Positions 11,092 to 17,607 of a stretch of 64,000 nt of DNA are shown one piece after another; the first letter of the stretch is position 1; every line of letters starts with the position of its first letter. This DNA is from an uncultured Fodinibius sp. (lineage in GTDB: Bacteria > Bacteroidota > Rhodothermia > Balneolales > Balneolaceae). The stretch is taken from positions 806,001-870,000 of the forward strand of contig CAJXMW010000001.1 in the NCBI GenBank assembly GCA_913056235.1, given 5' to 3'. The position numbers and the translations under genes were made by a program. The notes below the pieces were generated by a model, which did not search any database, was not told the DNA's origin, and was given only the letters and a program-made list of their open reading frames with translations.

Positions 11092-12333
11092 ATGGATTTA
11101 TTTGATAAGCTTCCGGACAGACCCAGCCCACTTGGGGAATTTACTTCAGAAGGATATGGCTACTATACTTATCCTAAGCTGGAGGGGCCACTGGGACCGG
11201 AAATGAAATTTAATGGCGATGATGTCATTGTCTGGAGTATTAATGACTATCTTGGGGTTGGAAGCAATGAAGAAGTGAAGGAGTATGATGCCGAAATTGC
11301 CCAGGATTACAGCCTAAGCAGTCCAATGGGGGCCCGCCTGATGACCGGCAACAGCTCGGAGCACGAGAAGCTGGAAGAAGAACTGGCGGATTTCGTCCAT
11401 AAGAATGATGCTTTTCTGCTCAACTATGGCTACCAGGGGATCATGAGTGTGATTCATGCCTTGGTGGATCGTAAAGATTATCTGATTTATGATGAGCTGA
11501 GCCATGCCTGCATTGTGGATGGCAAGCAGTTGGCCATGGCCGAGAAGTATGTATTCCAGCATAACGATATCGAAAGTTTTGAGAAGCAGCTCGAACGTGC
11601 CCATCGCAACAAGCGGGATGATTCAGCTGTGCTTGTGGTCACCGAAGGTGCTTTTGGCATGACCGGCGATCTGGGTATTCTGGAAGAAATGATTGCCCTT
11701 AAAGAAAAGTATCCCTTCCGATTGTTGGTGGATGACGCTCACGGCGTAGGTACCATGGGCGAAGACGGCTCTGGAACCGGAACCCACCTGGGATGCCACG
11801 ACGGTATTGACCTTTATTTTGGTACGTTTGCCAAGGCTTTTGCCCTGATTGGTGCATTTGTAGCAACCGACGACGAACGCGTGGTTGAGTTTTTGAAGGC
11901 AAATGTACGCAGCCAGATTTTTGCAAAGTCTGTGCCTATGCCAATCGTCAAGTCAGCACGCAAGCGGCTGGAGATGATTCGCAACAATCCCCAGTGGAGA
12001 GAAAAGCTCTGGGAAAATACCAATATGCTGCGTGAGGGTCTTCGTGATATTGGCTACAACGTGCTGCCGGCAGAATGTCCGGTTACACCGGTGCTGACGA
12101 AAGGCAGTACGGATCTTTGCCAGCTGATTATGCGCAAGCTTCGTGAAGAACACGGCGTATTTGTCAGCGGTGTGACCTATCCGGTAGTGCCGAAGGGAAC
12201 AGTACTGATTCGACTAATCCCCACTGCAGCTCATACCGAAGAGCATATTGAACAAACGCTCAAAGGTTTTGATGCTATCAAGGATGTGGTTTTTGCTGAG
12301 GCAAAAAAAATGGAACAAAAGATGACGGCCTAG
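11092..12333 (+). CDS. Alpha-oxoamine synthase (serine palmitoyltransferase / KBL-like PLP enzyme)
   Basis: This 413-residue fold-type I PLP enzyme belongs to the alpha-oxoamine synthases. LLVDDAHGVGTMGEDGSG carries the cofactor-binding aspartate and histidine, and YFGTFAKAFALIGAFVA carries the Schiff-base lysine, Lys248. SPMGARLMTGNSSEHEKLEE is the family's substrate-site segment. These enzymes condense an amino acid with an acyl-CoA. In Bacteroidota-like bacteria the relative with this N-terminus (MDLFDKL...) is usually annotated serine palmitoyltransferase or glycine acetyltransferase-like, and I cannot choose between them. A strong terminator follows. Confidence 0.85.
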   Translation: MDLFDKLPDRPSPLGEFTSEGYGYYTYPKLEGPLGPEMKFNGDDVIVWSINDYLGVGSNEEVKEYDAEIAQDYSLSSPMGARLMTGNSSEHEKLEEELADFVHKNDAFLLNYGYQGIMSVIHALVDRKDYLIYDELSHACIVDGKQLAMAEKYVFQHNDIESFEKQLERAHRNKRDDSAVLVVTEGAFGMTGDLGILEEMIALKEKYPFRLLVDDAHGVGTMGEDGSGTGTHLGCHDGIDLYFGTFAKAFALIGAFVATDDERVVEFLKANVRSQIFAKSVPMPIVKSARKRLEMIRNNPQWREKLWENTNMLREGLRDIGYNVLPAECPVTPVLTKGSTDLCQLIMRKLREEHGVFVSGVTYPVVPKGTVLIRLIPTAAHTEEHIEQTLKGFDAIKDVVFAEAKKMEQKMTA

Positions 12334-12492: not shown

Positions 12493-12533
12493 AATAAAAA
12501 AGCTCCGATTCCGAGTATTACGGAACCGGAGCT
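12493..12533 (-). terminator. Rho-independent terminator for the DEAD-box-like gene
   Basis: On the minus strand a 13-bp stem (12533-12521 with 12513-12501, one mismatch) around a 7-nt loop is followed by a run of six T. It lies 24 nt past the stop of the leftward helicase-like gene and faces the preceding terminator. Confidence 0.9.
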
Positions 12534-12556
12534 TATACAAGTTGGAGTAATTAGCC

Positions 12557-13930
12557 TTATGAAAAGAGTTTTTTGATCAGGCCGATGACCCCATCTTTTT
12601 CATCTTTTTTAGAGGCATCACCCTTACGTCCACCGCTCAGATTTTCATAGCTGGGACGCGGAAGTTGCATATCGTCGTCTTTGTGTTTCTTGCCACGGCC
12701 ATTTTGGCTGCCCCGCTTGGGTCGCTGGTCGCGTTTCTTCTTCGATTTATTCTTCTTCTCCTTTCGTTCTTCCAGTTTCTGTTTCACTTTATCAGGCAAC
12801 GGAAGTTCTTTCGGTGCTTTTCCCAAGGCGTTTTCCAGCTTGTTGATGTCGCTGCGATCTTGTTTGGATACCAGCGATACCAGCCGTGACGCTTTGCCTG
12901 AACCAACTAATCCAGCGCGGTATCGATACTCGTCAGGATCGGCAGGCACATCGTAGTTGATAACCTGTGTCACGCGGTTGATCTGTAGTTCCGCGGCCGG
13001 GATGTCGGCCACCAACAGATATTGCACATCACCGTTGGTGAAGTTAGCAAACCGCTGGGAATGCTTCTCATCAGATAGCTTGCCGTGCAGGCTCGTGGCC
13101 TTCAAATTTCGCTTCCGGAGTATACGATACAACCGGTCGGTTCCCCGCTTGGAGGCCGTGAAGATTACGCAATTGTCGGTAGGCGTATCTTCAAGATGAG
13201 CCATTAGCGTTGAAATCTTCATGCGGTTGGGCACGTAAATATATCCCTGCTTAAGATTTTGATCTAGCTCGGGAGGCTCAGTGAGCATACCCGGTTCATC
13301 TTCAAAACCAACAGCCTCCGGCTCATCTAAATAATCCTTGGCAAACTCTTTTACGTCATCGTTGAGCTCCTCGGTATAGATGAGGGTCTGATGATCGCTG
13401 AGTACGCGTTTGGTAATATTTTTGATTTTTGAATCCAGATTTAGCGAAAGCATTTCATCTGCTTCATCAATGACCAGCAAGTCAACATGCCGGAAAATAA
13501 AGCGCAGTTCCGCACAGACATCAAGCAGCGGGCCGGGATTGCCGACTATCACTTCAACCTCGCTTTGCAGGGCTTCAGCCTGCTCCTCAAAATCGCCATC
13601 CATGTCGATGGAGGCACATTCGATTTGCGCATGATATCCCATCGCCCAGACGAGCTCATCAATTTGTTGAGCCTCTTCCGGATTAGGAGTTAATACCAAT
13701 ACTGATGTGCCTTCTTTGGGCTCCTTGTTATTGATCTGTTCAAGAGCCGGTATAACAAAAGAGGCGATTTTGCTGCCGCCCGGTGCTGCTTTAATCAGTG
13801 CGTCTTTGCCATCGAGTACAACAGGTAGTGCTTCTTCTTGCAGTTCAGTAAGTTCAGTGTAGTTCACATCTTCAAGCCCGCTCATAATATTTGGGCTCAA
13901 CGTCATATCTTCAAACTTCAACGTTCTCAC
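12557..13930 (-). CDS. DEAD-box helicase-like protein with degenerate ATPase motifs
   Basis: The 457-residue protein follows the DEAD-box RNA helicase plan: a Q-motif-like start (FEDMTLSPNIMSGLE, YTELTELQEEALP), RecA1, RecA2 and a basic tail. VIDEADEML (154-161) keeps motif II. Other motifs are lost. Motif I is KAAPGGSKI (48-56) in place of A-x-TGSGKT. The SAT motif III is replaced near 183-187 (LIYTE). Motif V reads VADIPAAEL. Motif VI reads YRYRAGLVGSG (336-344 region) in place of HRxGRxGR. Motif IV (VIFTASKRGTDRLYRI) survives. The reading frame is intact, so this looks like a conserved RNA-binding pseudo-helicase rather than a decaying gene. The tail from about 380 is rich in Lys, Arg and Gly. 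Confidence 0.85.
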   Translation of the reverse strand: MRTLKFEDMTLSPNIMSGLEDVNYTELTELQEEALPVVLDGKDALIKAAPGGSKIASFVIPALEQINNKEPKEGTSVLVLTPNPEEAQQIDELVWAMGYHAQIECASIDMDGDFEEQAEALQSEVEVIVGNPGPLLDVCAELRFIFRHVDLLVIDEADEMLSLNLDSKIKNITKRVLSDHQTLIYTEELNDDVKEFAKDYLDEPEAVGFEDEPGMLTEPPELDQNLKQGYIYVPNRMKISTLMAHLEDTPTDNCVIFTASKRGTDRLYRILRKRNLKATSLHGKLSDEKHSQRFANFTNGDVQYLLVADIPAAELQINRVTQVINYDVPADPDEYRYRAGLVGSGKASRLVSLVSKQDRSDINKLENALGKAPKELPLPDKVKQKLEERKEKKNKSKKKRDQRPKRGSQNGRGKKHKDDDMQLPRPSYENLSGGRKGDASKKDEKDGVIGLIKKLFS

Positions 13931-14010
13931 CTTTCATTTGATTAGCGTTTGTTCACAAAGCACTGCTTCAAAACCAAGCAATGCGTATCAAGTGGCAGAA
14001 TATACAAAAC

Positions 14011-14958
14011 TTATTGGCTTTGCTCATCTGATTTCCCAGCCGGCTGATACTCGTTCGAAAACAGCTCGGCTATGGCTATTTCATATCCTTCTGCCTTTAT
14101 ATAAACGTAAGAGAGACCCAACATTATTGCCATGCCAACCCAGCCCATGAGGCCGGCCTCGGGGCCAAAGGCACCGCCCGTCCACAACTCGATACCGTTC
14201 TGTTGTATACGGATAACTGAGGTTTCGAAGTTCATGCCGCTGACGGGAAATCCCAGCACCCCAGCCATCACAAAATTCCAGCTGAAATGGAGCCCAACAG
14301 AAAGACCAAGGCTGCCCGTCAGAATATAGGGCACGGCCAGTACAATGCCGGCAATGACAATGTTGAAGGTAGAAACGGCCGAAGCGTTATCGTTGAAGAT
14401 GTGCATAATTCCAAACAGGGAGGAAGTCAAAAGGACAGCTATAACTATAGCGCCGCGCGTACCAAACTGGGGATATCGGAAGCCCTCGGTAAGATTCAAA
14501 ATCTGGTAGCCACGGGAAAAAAGCTCTTCATGGAATCCGACCATTAACATTCCTAGAAAAGAACTGATCATAATCCAAAAGAACGAATTTTGGGTAGTGA
14601 CATTCCAGCCAAAGCCGGTAATGGTCAGCCATCCCGCCGCCCATTCTACCGCAAAGATCGTGATTTGAGCTACTGCCGCGATAGCGCATCCCACTAAAAA
14701 CTCTCGAAACCACTGGCGGTCTAAAGCGATGCCATAGTCGAAGAACGAGCGTTTATCCATAAGATAAGCCGCAACCCAGACGCTGGCGATAATGCCGATA
14801 AACTGGGGAAGGATCAAAAATATGCTTAGCGAACTATCGATCAGTGTTTGTGATCCAAGAATGCCGAAGCCCACAAACAGGAACATAAAAATGAACTGTA
14901 CCAACAGCCGCCAGCCCGCTCTGGCCCGCTGTTCTTTTTCATTGATGAAGATATTCAT
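14011..14958 (-). CDS. CPBP family intramembrane glutamic endopeptidase (CAAX/Abi protease)
   Basis: I choose the ATG at 14958, because the upstream extension to 15090 overlaps the divergent gene and looks non-coding. The 315-residue product has about eight hydrophobic segments and the three CPBP motifs in order: HEELFSRGYQ (EExxxR), LFGIMHIFN (FxxxH) and LHFSWNF (HxxxN/D). These form the intramembrane glutamate-protease site of the Rce1/Abi family. Substrates in bacteria are mostly unknown. It is divergent from the SRAP-like gene, with 84 nt between the starts. Confidence 0.9.
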   Translation of the reverse strand: MNIFINEKEQRARAGWRLLVQFIFMFLFVGFGILGSQTLIDSSLSIFLILPQFIGIIASVWVAAYLMDKRSFFDYGIALDRQWFREFLVGCAIAAVAQITIFAVEWAAGWLTITGFGWNVTTQNSFFWIMISSFLGMLMVGFHEELFSRGYQILNLTEGFRYPQFGTRGAIVIAVLLTSSLFGIMHIFNDNASAVSTFNIVIAGIVLAVPYILTGSLGLSVGLHFSWNFVMAGVLGFPVSGMNFETSVIRIQQNGIELWTGGAFGPEAGLMGWVGMAIMLGLSYVYIKAEGYEIAIAELFSNEYQPAGKSDEQSQ

Positions 14959-15042
14959 AAGCAGAGAAACATTGTTTATTTTGTCGCGTTTAGTACAAAA
15001 ACGTTGTAACCTAAGTGAAAAGATGAAATAAATCAGGAATTT

Positions 15043-15717
15043 ATGAGTGACCGATTTGTACTTGAGGCTGACAAAGATGAAGTAGAGCACTTGTTTGACG
15101 TATCGACGGAACGGAATGATTTTTTTGAATCGGAGTATAATATAACGCCTGGTTCACGGATTCCGGTGGTGTACCAAGAGGATGGTGAGCGCAAGATCTA
15201 TACTTTTAGTTGGGGGATGATTCCACCGAATGCTGATGAAGAGAGGGAGGGGGAAGGTAATTTTGAGGCGGCCTTGGAGGATATCGAGGATGATGAATGG
15301 CTCAGTGAATGTTTCGAGCAACGCCGATGCCTGATTCCGGCTAATGGTTTTTACAAGTGGAAGTTCAGCGAAAAGAAGAGCACGCCTTTTTATATCCGAT
15401 TGTTATCCAATGAGCTTACGGCGCTGGCCGGTATTTACTCGGTATGGAAGTCGTCCTCTGGTCGCAAAGTCTATTCATGCGCTATGCTCACGACTGAAGC
15501 GAACGCGCTGGTACAGCCGGTGGATAACCGTATGCCGATCTTACTGCGTCCGGAGCATTACGAGATGTGGTTGTCTGAGGAGCCGTTGACCGATAGCAAT
15601 ATAGAGAAACTGCTCAACAGCTATTCGATGACGGAGATGGCGGTTAATCGCGTCTCGGAGGATGTCAACGATCCGGATAATAACAGCCCGGAGCTGATCC
15701 AGCCGATACCAAAGTAG
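15043..15717 (+). CDS. SRAP-domain (YedK/HMCES-like) protein lacking the catalytic residues
   Basis: The 224-residue protein aligns by eye to the SOS response-associated peptidase family: FSWGMIPP, then CLIPANGFYKWKF, then LAGIYSVWKSSSG, then PVDNRMPILLRPEHYEMWL. The family normally starts MCGR, with Cys2 forming a thiazolidine link to abasic sites and self-cleaving the start Met. Here the start is MSDRF, so position 2 is serine. The catalytic Glu of GFYEW is Lys105. The His of the I-H-x-R-M-P motif is Asp161. The NARAET segment is replaced by NFEAAL, keeping only the Asn (73). The reading frame is intact, so this is a pseudo-SRAP with possible DNA binding but no expected covalent crosslinking. 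Confidence 0.88.
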   Translation: MSDRFVLEADKDEVEHLFDVSTERNDFFESEYNITPGSRIPVVYQEDGERKIYTFSWGMIPPNADEEREGEGNFEAALEDIEDDEWLSECFEQRRCLIPANGFYKWKFSEKKSTPFYIRLLSNELTALAGIYSVWKSSSGRKVYSCAMLTTEANALVQPVDNRMPILLRPEHYEMWLSEEPLTDSNIEKLLNSYSMTEMAVNRVSEDVNDPDNNSPELIQPIPK

Positions 15718-16141: not shown

Positions 16142-17035
16142 TCAGCGATCGGGCTGTTGGTAGATGCGCATCGTGGGATAGGCCAGATCGATATCCTCAT
16201 GTTCATCAAATTGTTGCAGCATGTCTTCCCAAATTTTTTGCGAGATGCTACGTCGCCGTCGGGGATCGGAGAGATGCCGGACCGTTAATCGCACCCCGCT
16301 GTCTTGTACATCGGTATAAATGATGGGCGTCAAGTATTTGTAGTGAATCAGGTATGACTTTTTAGCCCGACGCACCTGCTGTTGTGCCCGATCCACAAAA
16401 TCCTGCAGATGTTCATCAGCAATATTCTGAAGGATTTCCTTGGCCTTCTTCCAGTCGCTTTCGAAGGTAACAAGAACCTCTAGCTCATTCCAGATAAACT
16501 CAAAGTCGCTGGTATAGTTGGCAAGTGAATCCGTGAAAATATTGTGATTGGAGACATGTACAACACGGCCCGTACTCTGGTCGGCATGCACCCAGTTGCC
16601 AATTTCGAGCACCGTAAACTTAAACACCCGAATGTCAATAACGTCGCCCTTCACATCGCCGATCTGGATGCGGTCGCCCACATCAAAGGGCTTGCGCCAG
16701 AGGATGAAAATCCATCCTGCAAGATCAGAGACTGGATCTTTGAGGGCGATAGCCAAACCGGCCGAGAGCAGTCCCAGGAAGGTGGCCAGTGACTGGAGAC
16801 CTTCGAACCAGATGTTACCAACGATCAGAAATCCCACGAAAACCGAGACGTAGGTCAGGTTTTTACGCCATTTATACTGCATTCGGGCATCATCCTGTCG
16901 ACGGTTTACAATCCGGATAGCAATAAGCCGGAGCAGCCAGATGATGAAGATCGCCGCAATGGATAGAATAAGCTGATAGGTGATACCCGGCGAATTTTCT
17001 ATAAATGTCTGGATGCGGTCGGTAAAATTCTGCAC
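16142..17035 (-). CDS. Small-conductance mechanosensitive channel (MscS family)
   Basis: The 297-residue protein has three N-terminal transmembrane segments (about 18-38, 55-72 and 77-95) and the MscS beta-domain entry RKPFDVGDRIQIGDVKGD, followed by HVSNHNIFTD and the alpha/beta C-terminal domain. It would open under membrane tension to release solutes during osmotic downshock. The pore helix region around GLLSAGLAIALKDPVSDLAG has the Ala/Gly packing expected. The gene is monocistronic. Confidence 0.92.
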   Translation of the reverse strand: MQNFTDRIQTFIENSPGITYQLILSIAAIFIIWLLRLIAIRIVNRRQDDARMQYKWRKNLTYVSVFVGFLIVGNIWFEGLQSLATFLGLLSAGLAIALKDPVSDLAGWIFILWRKPFDVGDRIQIGDVKGDVIDIRVFKFTVLEIGNWVHADQSTGRVVHVSNHNIFTDSLANYTSDFEFIWNELEVLVTFESDWKKAKEILQNIADEHLQDFVDRAQQQVRRAKKSYLIHYKYLTPIIYTDVQDSGVRLTVRHLSDPRRRRSISQKIWEDMLQQFDEHEDIDLAYPTMRIYQQPDR

Positions 17036-17178: not shown

Positions 17179-17607
17179 ATGCTTTACACAATCATATTAT
17201 CAGTTATTGTATTAGTTTGCGTTTTATTAACGATCGTTGTGCTGCTGCAACCCGGTCAGGGACAAGGTCTTTCCGGTGGACTTGCCGGCGGTATGCAAGG
17301 GGGGCAAGGACTCGGTGCGCGTCGTACTGCTGACCTTCTTTCTAAGTCCACAACGGTTTTGGGAACTGCACTACTTGTGCTCTGCGTGCTGGCGAATTTT
17401 GCTATCAATCGCGGAGAGCGGAACGAAAGCGCGGTTCAGCAAAGCGGCGTACCTGCACAAACCCAGCAGAACGATATGAACAATTCCGAAACGCCTTCTG
17501 CAGTACCATTGCCACAGAATCAACAAGGCAGTGGAAACGCCAACAGCGGCAATAATGGTGGAAATGGTGGCAATGACGGAGGCTCTGGTTCCGACGGAGG
17601 AAACTAA
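17179..17607 (+). CDS. secG: Preprotein translocase subunit SecG
   Basis: Residues 1-20 and about 55-72 are the two SecG transmembrane helices. Between them lies the typical glycine-rich loop VLLQPGQGQGLSGGLAGG, then LGARRTADLLSKSTT. SecG is an inner-membrane part of the SecYEG channel. The 142-residue length exceeds the usual 75-110 because of a low-complexity tail (from about residue 85) rich in Gln, Asn, Gly and Ser, ending GGSGSDGGN. A strong terminator follows, so this is a single-gene unit. Confidence 0.93.
   Translation: MLYTIILSVIVLVCVLLTIVVLLQPGQGQGLSGGLAGGMQGGQGLGARRTADLLSKSTTVLGTALLVLCVLANFAINRGERNESAVQQSGVPAQTQQNDMNNSETPSAVPLPQNQQGSGNANSGNNGGNGGNDGGSGSDGGN

Follow-up and report, generated by a model that had tools for sequence, protein, structure and literature searches.

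Utp25/Def is a pseudohelicase of the eukaryotic SSU processome, and its authors stated in 2022 that to their knowledge it was only the second one to be proposed (PMC9539457). The marks of a pseudohelicase argued for there are motifs that are vestigial and non-functional, the structure of a helicase, a requirement for the cell, and inactivity in functional or mutational assays. The pseudohelicases that we found in print were Utp25 and Deinococcus radiodurans PriA, a DNA replication-restart protein whose inactivity is reported to have been demonstrated by assay (PMC4504706). A few sets of search terms applied to the open-licence PMC literature returned no published bacterial DEAD-box pseudohelicase. 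Here we describe a bacterial DEAD-box pseudohelicase family whose reality, conservation and single origin are well supported by the sequences compared. Like Utp25 (PMC9539457), the protein combines a pair of RecA-like domains with vestigial motifs and a disordered extension, and is kept by its hosts; however, Utp25 carries an N-terminal extension and belongs to eukaryotic ribosome assembly, whereas the present protein is bacterial and has a C-terminal tail. It resembles D. radiodurans PriA (PMC4504706) in being a bacterial helicase-family protein that lost its ATPase in one lineage and was kept, and differs in being an RNA-helicase-type paralogue that stands beside an active-looking copy and is predicted from its sequence to be inactive. 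We regard it as slightly better than an even bet that this is a vertically inherited pseudohelicase of single origin that docks, via RecA2 and its tail, where its active paralogue docks.

The gene lies on the reverse strand of the window (the whole 64,000-nucleotide stretch analysed, from an uncultured Fodinibius sp. of the family Balneolaceae). The frame at 12557–13930(−) was unbroken and comprised 457 codons counted from GTG, so that the intact frame of the initial annotation stood; its start at GTG 13930 probably did not. Translation probably begins at TTG 13921, giving a coding sequence at 12557..13921(−) of 454 codons plus stop, which contains the Pfam matches, because the GTG falls within a ribosome-site-like sequence and because each of the 64 complete pseudohelicases that were placed, the window protein among them, had TTG as the equivalent codon. 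The Shine-Dalgarno-like AAAGGTGAG (13934–13926) lies in the stretch preceding the TTG (13922..13934, −), and a similar arrangement was seen in relatives. The start-codon count, which omits three fragments (L027, L149 and L150), searched the start region for Leu/Met with Ser/Lys and then Phe/Lys behind it and thus tests which codon stands there; L002, an active-looking DEAD-box paralogue in the same genome, likewise had TTG at this position.

Among mechanically chosen starts, TTG was assigned to most pseudohelicases (the window gene at 13921, L005–L033, L114–L148 and the seven further copies L159–L165), with ATG in L154 and GTG in L156, L157 and L158. The same procedure gave TTG in 25 of 26 L002-type paralogues (L002, L155, L167 and L171–L193, with GTG for L173) and ATG in the other DEAD-box paralogues L166 and L168–L170. 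The TTG start common to pseudohelicases and L002-type paralogues possibly reflects inherited translational control. Downstream, the terminator that had been ascribed to the gene was found as an intrinsic-terminator-like hairpin with a T run (12500..12534, −), whose 14-pair stem was the longest among four hits in the window (shuffles: 1.9, s.d. 1.7); it may mark the end of the pseudohelicase transcript.

Pfam detected DEAD (1e-22) and Helicase_C (2e-14) in the window protein, both over the cut-off, and comparison of a predicted model with PDB structures agreed with the two-RecA layout originally read from the sequence. The RecA1-like domain (residues ~1–205; 13307..13921, −) lacks Walker A, SAT and most RNA contacts, as judged from motif counts and the model. 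It is followed by a RecA2-like domain with an extension, delimited by alignment and model (residues ~223–383; 12773..13255, −), a Lys/Arg-rich linker (residues ~384–419; 12665..12772, −) and a C-terminal motif, LPRPSYENLSGGRKG...GVIGLIKKLFS (12557..12664, −), defined by the tail alignment of family members. The model had a mean pLDDT of 82.5 and a pTM of 0.52, with both RecA domains confident; residues 208–217 and 404–454 fell below pLDDT 50, and a short helix was drawn at 446–452. It superposed on DDX6 (5anr; Z 36.4, rmsd 4.4 over 356 residues) and CshA (5ivl; Z 31.3, rmsd 7.6 over 361 residues). Since the alignment behind the model consisted of 33 canonical homologues, from at least 80 listed loci, and biases it toward the DEAD-box fold, the agreement indicates compatibility rather than independent proof; with this reading, the predicted structure is that of a helicase, as the term pseudohelicase implies.

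CshA-type helicases were the closest known proteins in sequence: CshA 5ivl was the best PDB match (4e-49), and the fold, the Q-motif Gln and the motif Va NYDxP are common to both, whereas the window protein is devoid of the ATPase and RNA-contact motifs. Its score against the CshA family (NF053631), 227.8 bits for a cut-off of 646, was the best of 17 NCBIfam matches, every one of which was far under its cut-off. Membership in the Utp25 family (PF06862, Utp25_C) was likewise unsupported, as the window protein gave no match at E ≤ 0.01. Two of 54 pseudohelicases matched Utp25_C weakly (best 0.0015), but so did the active L002 (0.0057, below the cut-off), so that shared helicase ancestry looks likelier than membership. 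Separately, 19 of the 54 gave weak matches to the Pfam family HolC (DNA polymerase III chi; best 4e-5), perhaps because the folds are alike.

Alignment of the window protein with CshA and 26 active paralogues bore out the motif losses that had been proposed. Motif I reads AAPGGSKI instead of AQTGTGKT and does not conform to the Walker A pattern GxGKT; motif III is YTEE instead of FSAT, motif V VADIPAAELQI instead of ATDVxxRGIDI, and motif VI YRAGLVGS instead of HRxGRTGR, with the arginine fingers gone. The Q-motif Gln, DEAD and motif IV were present, as initially noted. The changes extended to the family: none of the 79 complete pseudohelicases, counted against the 26 active paralogues, was canonical. 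By sequence, therefore, the motifs are vestigial and non-functional, as expected of a pseudohelicase, and the loss of the residues that bind and hydrolyse ATP, and with it pseudoenzyme status, is well supported. Conversely, the initial suggestion that DEAD itself was preserved by selection had to be discarded, because the window protein was the only one of the 79 to have it. The commonest versions of motif II were DQAE and DEAH (23/79 each), and eleven genus mates of the window protein had DAAD, DSAD, DATD, DELD, DEMD or DDLS.

The residues that contact RNA bear on an explanation that we consider unlikely, though worth weighing first: an RNA-binding scaffold in which mainly the linker and what is left of the cleft would hold RNA, the protein chaperoning RNA or assisting in assembly, for example that of ribosomes, as discussed for Utp25. 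A basic linker was found in all 75 members measured (median length 45 residues; median net charge +16, range +8 to +24; +10 in the window protein). Motif Ib kept its Pro in 79 and its Arg in 55 of the 79, and the first Arg of motif VI persisted in 73. Against this, the motif Ia Arg was retained in 1/79, the two glycines of GG in 4/79 and 0/79, the conserved residues of QxxR in 7/79 and 11/79, and the motif V Thr in none. Because these classical contacts are largely gone, RNA binding through the usual cleft is doubtful, the persistence of the Ib Arg notwithstanding. The selection for RNA binding or scaffolding suggested by the initial annotation is partly supported in that the protein may still act as a scaffold or hold RNA with its basic linker. 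Active DEAD-box proteins can have basic linkers as well, which counts against assigning them this role here.

The nucleotide site suggests another explanation, which we judge improbable: a residual sensor with a non-standard mode of binding ATP or some other nucleotide, which would change its conformation without helicase activity. The Q-motif Gln was retained in 74/79 and the first Asp of motif II in 72/79. Weak nucleotide binding is conceivable because most of the window protein's genus retains, in the old Walker A, a Gly together with a Lys or Arg. However, across the family motif I kept its Thr in 0/79 and its Lys in 12/79, the P-loop was acidic or shortened in many members, and the arginine fingers survived in 2/79 and 3/79. 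SAT retained its Ser in 31, its Ala in 23 and its Thr in 10 of the 79, and motif V its Arg in none. Elsewhere, the motif IV Phe (74/79) and the Asn, Asp and Pro of motif Va (73/79, 76/79 and 79/79) were retained.

The pseudohelicase was present in 85 of 92 genomes of the bacterial family, as 79 complete copies (including L017 of G037), five fragments (G048, G056, G059, G070 and G073, that of G048 being an N-terminal fragment at a contig edge) and one disrupted copy (G084), the last six being excluded from the complete set. The C-terminal profile matched strongly (E 6e-28 or better) in 77/92. Eight of the other 15 genomes also had the gene: six with divergent copies (G036, G083, G087, G088, G089 and G090), together with G048 and G084. 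The gene was not found in G049 and G071, which are 78–81% complete in 370–380 contigs. It was missing at the syntenic site in five g19 genomes (G080, G081, G082, G085 and G086), where the genes that flank it elsewhere, encoding CPBP and aminotransferase-family proteins, adjoin; G082 is the only one of these seven genomes that is >90% complete, and its stretch contains ambiguous bases. In G084, the syntenic copy (L197, about 900–2470) was broken by several frame changes, by decay or assembly errors. These absences and the disruption suggest that the gene is dispensable in that part of g19. In L017/L152 (G037:C6:209956–211367), the conserved tail was out of frame with the gene body, through a frameshift or an assembly error.

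In its own genome (G000, 3.97 Mb), the pseudohelicase was single. The three further matches were L002 (32% identity; G000:C6), a DEAD-box paralogue with canonical motifs, L003 (25%), another DEAD-box protein included in the tree, and a protein at 26% that resembles RecQ. Matches at E 1e-12 or better were confined to the family among 244 genomes of the class, and all 44 hits at this threshold among 394 genomes of the phylum fell within it. Outside the family, 23 class genomes gave weak matches (best E 5e-12), and the five that were fetched (L173, L174, L177, L178 and L189) had canonical motifs. The search of named genome contigs returned at least 80 loci, at 27–31% identity among the matches listed and from other phyla by their titles, and the 33 that were aligned had a consensus with canonical motifs; the 24 pattern hits on viral contigs included no relatives.

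When 62 proteins were placed in a tree, a single branch (SH-aLRT 100, stem length 1.75) separated all 27 pseudohelicase rows from the rest, and their nearest neighbors were L002-type paralogues of the order; the tree was made by a quick search and leaves open the branching order of pseudohelicases, paralogues of the family and those of other families. L194, L195, L196 and L221 stood outside the tree, and their membership rests on similarity and neighbors: the divergent copies L195, L196 and L221 had the CPBP gene on one side and the aminotransferase gene on the other, and L194 adjoined the aminotransferase gene. In the window, the upstream neighbor on the same strand was the CPBP/Rce1-like gene (14011..15090, −; relatives in 12/16 loci), followed by an SRAP gene (15043..15717, +; 16/16), an MscS-type channel gene, mscS (16142..17035, −; 14/16), and secG (17179..17607, +; 15/16). 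On the other side lay the aminotransferase-family gene (11092..12333, +), in reach in 8/16 loci and at the g19 sites. These neighbors pointed to no pathway. Because the pseudohelicases share one branch and common neighbors, the gene most likely arose once and was inherited in place.

Estimates of dN/dS were far below one wherever measurable. There were 66 pairs within the genus, 25 of them printed; YN00 gave values for five of the 25 (0.063, 0.040, 0.042, 0.034 and 0.059; dS 0.5–2.6), none involving the window protein, and NG86 for nine, the remainder being saturated. The NG86 values were 0.027–0.046 for the five YN00 pairs and 0.027–0.073 over all nine, with the window protein at 0.052 and 0.073. 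In every one of 16 genome comparisons, the pseudohelicase showed lower conservation than its active counterpart (for example, 81 vs 90% and 40 vs 58%); in these, the whole pseudohelicase was set against the first 385 residues (helicase core) of the active protein, an arrangement that favors the latter. Together, low dN/dS and this lesser conservation suggest a protein that is constrained yet faster-changing. Of the two observations that the initial annotation had named as refuting it, close homologues with canonical motifs and dN/dS near one, neither was made, and the conserved subfamily that it had preferred to recent decay held up.

The new constraint was located mainly in RecA2 and the tail. 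Among 71 less divergent members (eight divergent rows being set aside), 54 positions were at least 90% invariant with no matching conservation in the active paralogues, although at some of them the active copies carry that residue too, with less uniformity. Four of the 54 lay before residue 220, 40 at residues 223–382 and 10 in the tail, so that 50 belonged to RecA2 and tail. A further 41 positions, about 20 in RecA1, were conserved in active and pseudo copies alike, and 73 paralogue-invariant positions were not kept in pseudohelicases; judging from this alignment, RecA1 retains part of the old constraint. A gene decaying on its way out is thus very improbable: its lesser conservation, its absence from five g19 genomes and disruption in one, and its strong divergence in g8, g18, g19 and g20 would fit, but the low dN/dS, the open frames in 79 genomes (one with its tail in another frame), the new invariant positions and a tail recognizable in 75/79 contradict decay or sequencing error for the family at large, and decay may be right for part of g19.

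The C terminus had been described simply as Lys/Arg-rich; that holds for the linker, beyond which we found a conserved motif of 30–41 residues. It consists of LPRPxYDxLSGGRxG followed by GxxGxxKKLF at or near the end, and the four complete copies in which it was missing were L017, with its tail match in another frame, and three proteins of g19 whose last residues are VKR(L/F)FKRLF. A pattern for the terminal peptide matched 75/79 pseudohelicases and 25/26 active L002-type copies vs 2/175 other ORFs; the regular expression was composed with the sequences already in view and tailored to known cases, which makes this contrast suggestive. By eye, five other DEAD-box paralogues ended differently. 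The L002-type paralogue thus resembles the pseudohelicase in its place in the tree, its C-terminal end and its TTG start, but keeps canonical motifs (26 compared) and lacks LPRPxYDxLSGGRxG, a feature of the pseudohelicase clade. As an indicator of a membrane-binding helix, the hydrophobic moment of the terminal peptide gave a mixed picture: shuffles as high made up 5–8% in five pseudohelicases and 7–47% in four active copies; the values for L156, L154 and L195 were 20%, 24% and 2%.

Neither the tail nor a repeat found elsewhere in some members named a partner through other carriers. The tail profile gave some match at E 10 in 36 of 39 genomes, and beyond the first match none scored better than E 0.0019; a PDB search with the tail at E 10 returned nothing. 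In L114, L116–L133, L158–L163 and L165, a KLxxASVKVVLNPEE-type repeat is inserted between RecA1 and RecA2 in one to three copies; no second match better than E 1 was detected in eight genomes.

Returning to the docking protein that we favor, a DEAD-box helicase gene would have been duplicated in or before the ancestor of the bacterial family. One copy would have stayed an active-looking helicase, L002 in this genome, while the other would have shed most classical RNA contacts along with the residues that bind and hydrolyse ATP, and then have been inherited vertically in one neighborhood under purifying selection. The resulting docking or adaptor protein would offer RecA2 as a protein surface, and its basic linker may hold RNA loosely. 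A common docking place is proposed because the C-terminal ends of pseudo and active copies resemble each other: the terminal peptide would bind the same partner as the active paralogue's end, a protein complex or a membrane, and the pseudohelicase could thereby recruit to, or compete with, the active helicase at this site. For docking through RecA2 and the sister-like peptide taken by itself, our confidence ranges from tentative to roughly balanced. More speculatively, and with the chances leaning against it, the pseudohelicase might regulate its active sister by sharing or competing for the C-terminal docking site, with LPRPxYDxLSGGRxG recruiting a lineage-specific partner, as an independent bacterial counterpart to Utp25.

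The 79 complete sequences of this bacterial DEAD-box family most likely share one origin and have stable neighbors, an active-looking paralogue coexists with the pseudohelicase in the cell, and one sub-lineage includes natural losses of the gene. The family would thus be a clean system for asking what a helicase fold does without ATP and how a dead enzyme gains new constraints, and its family-specific tail could serve as bait for finding the partner.
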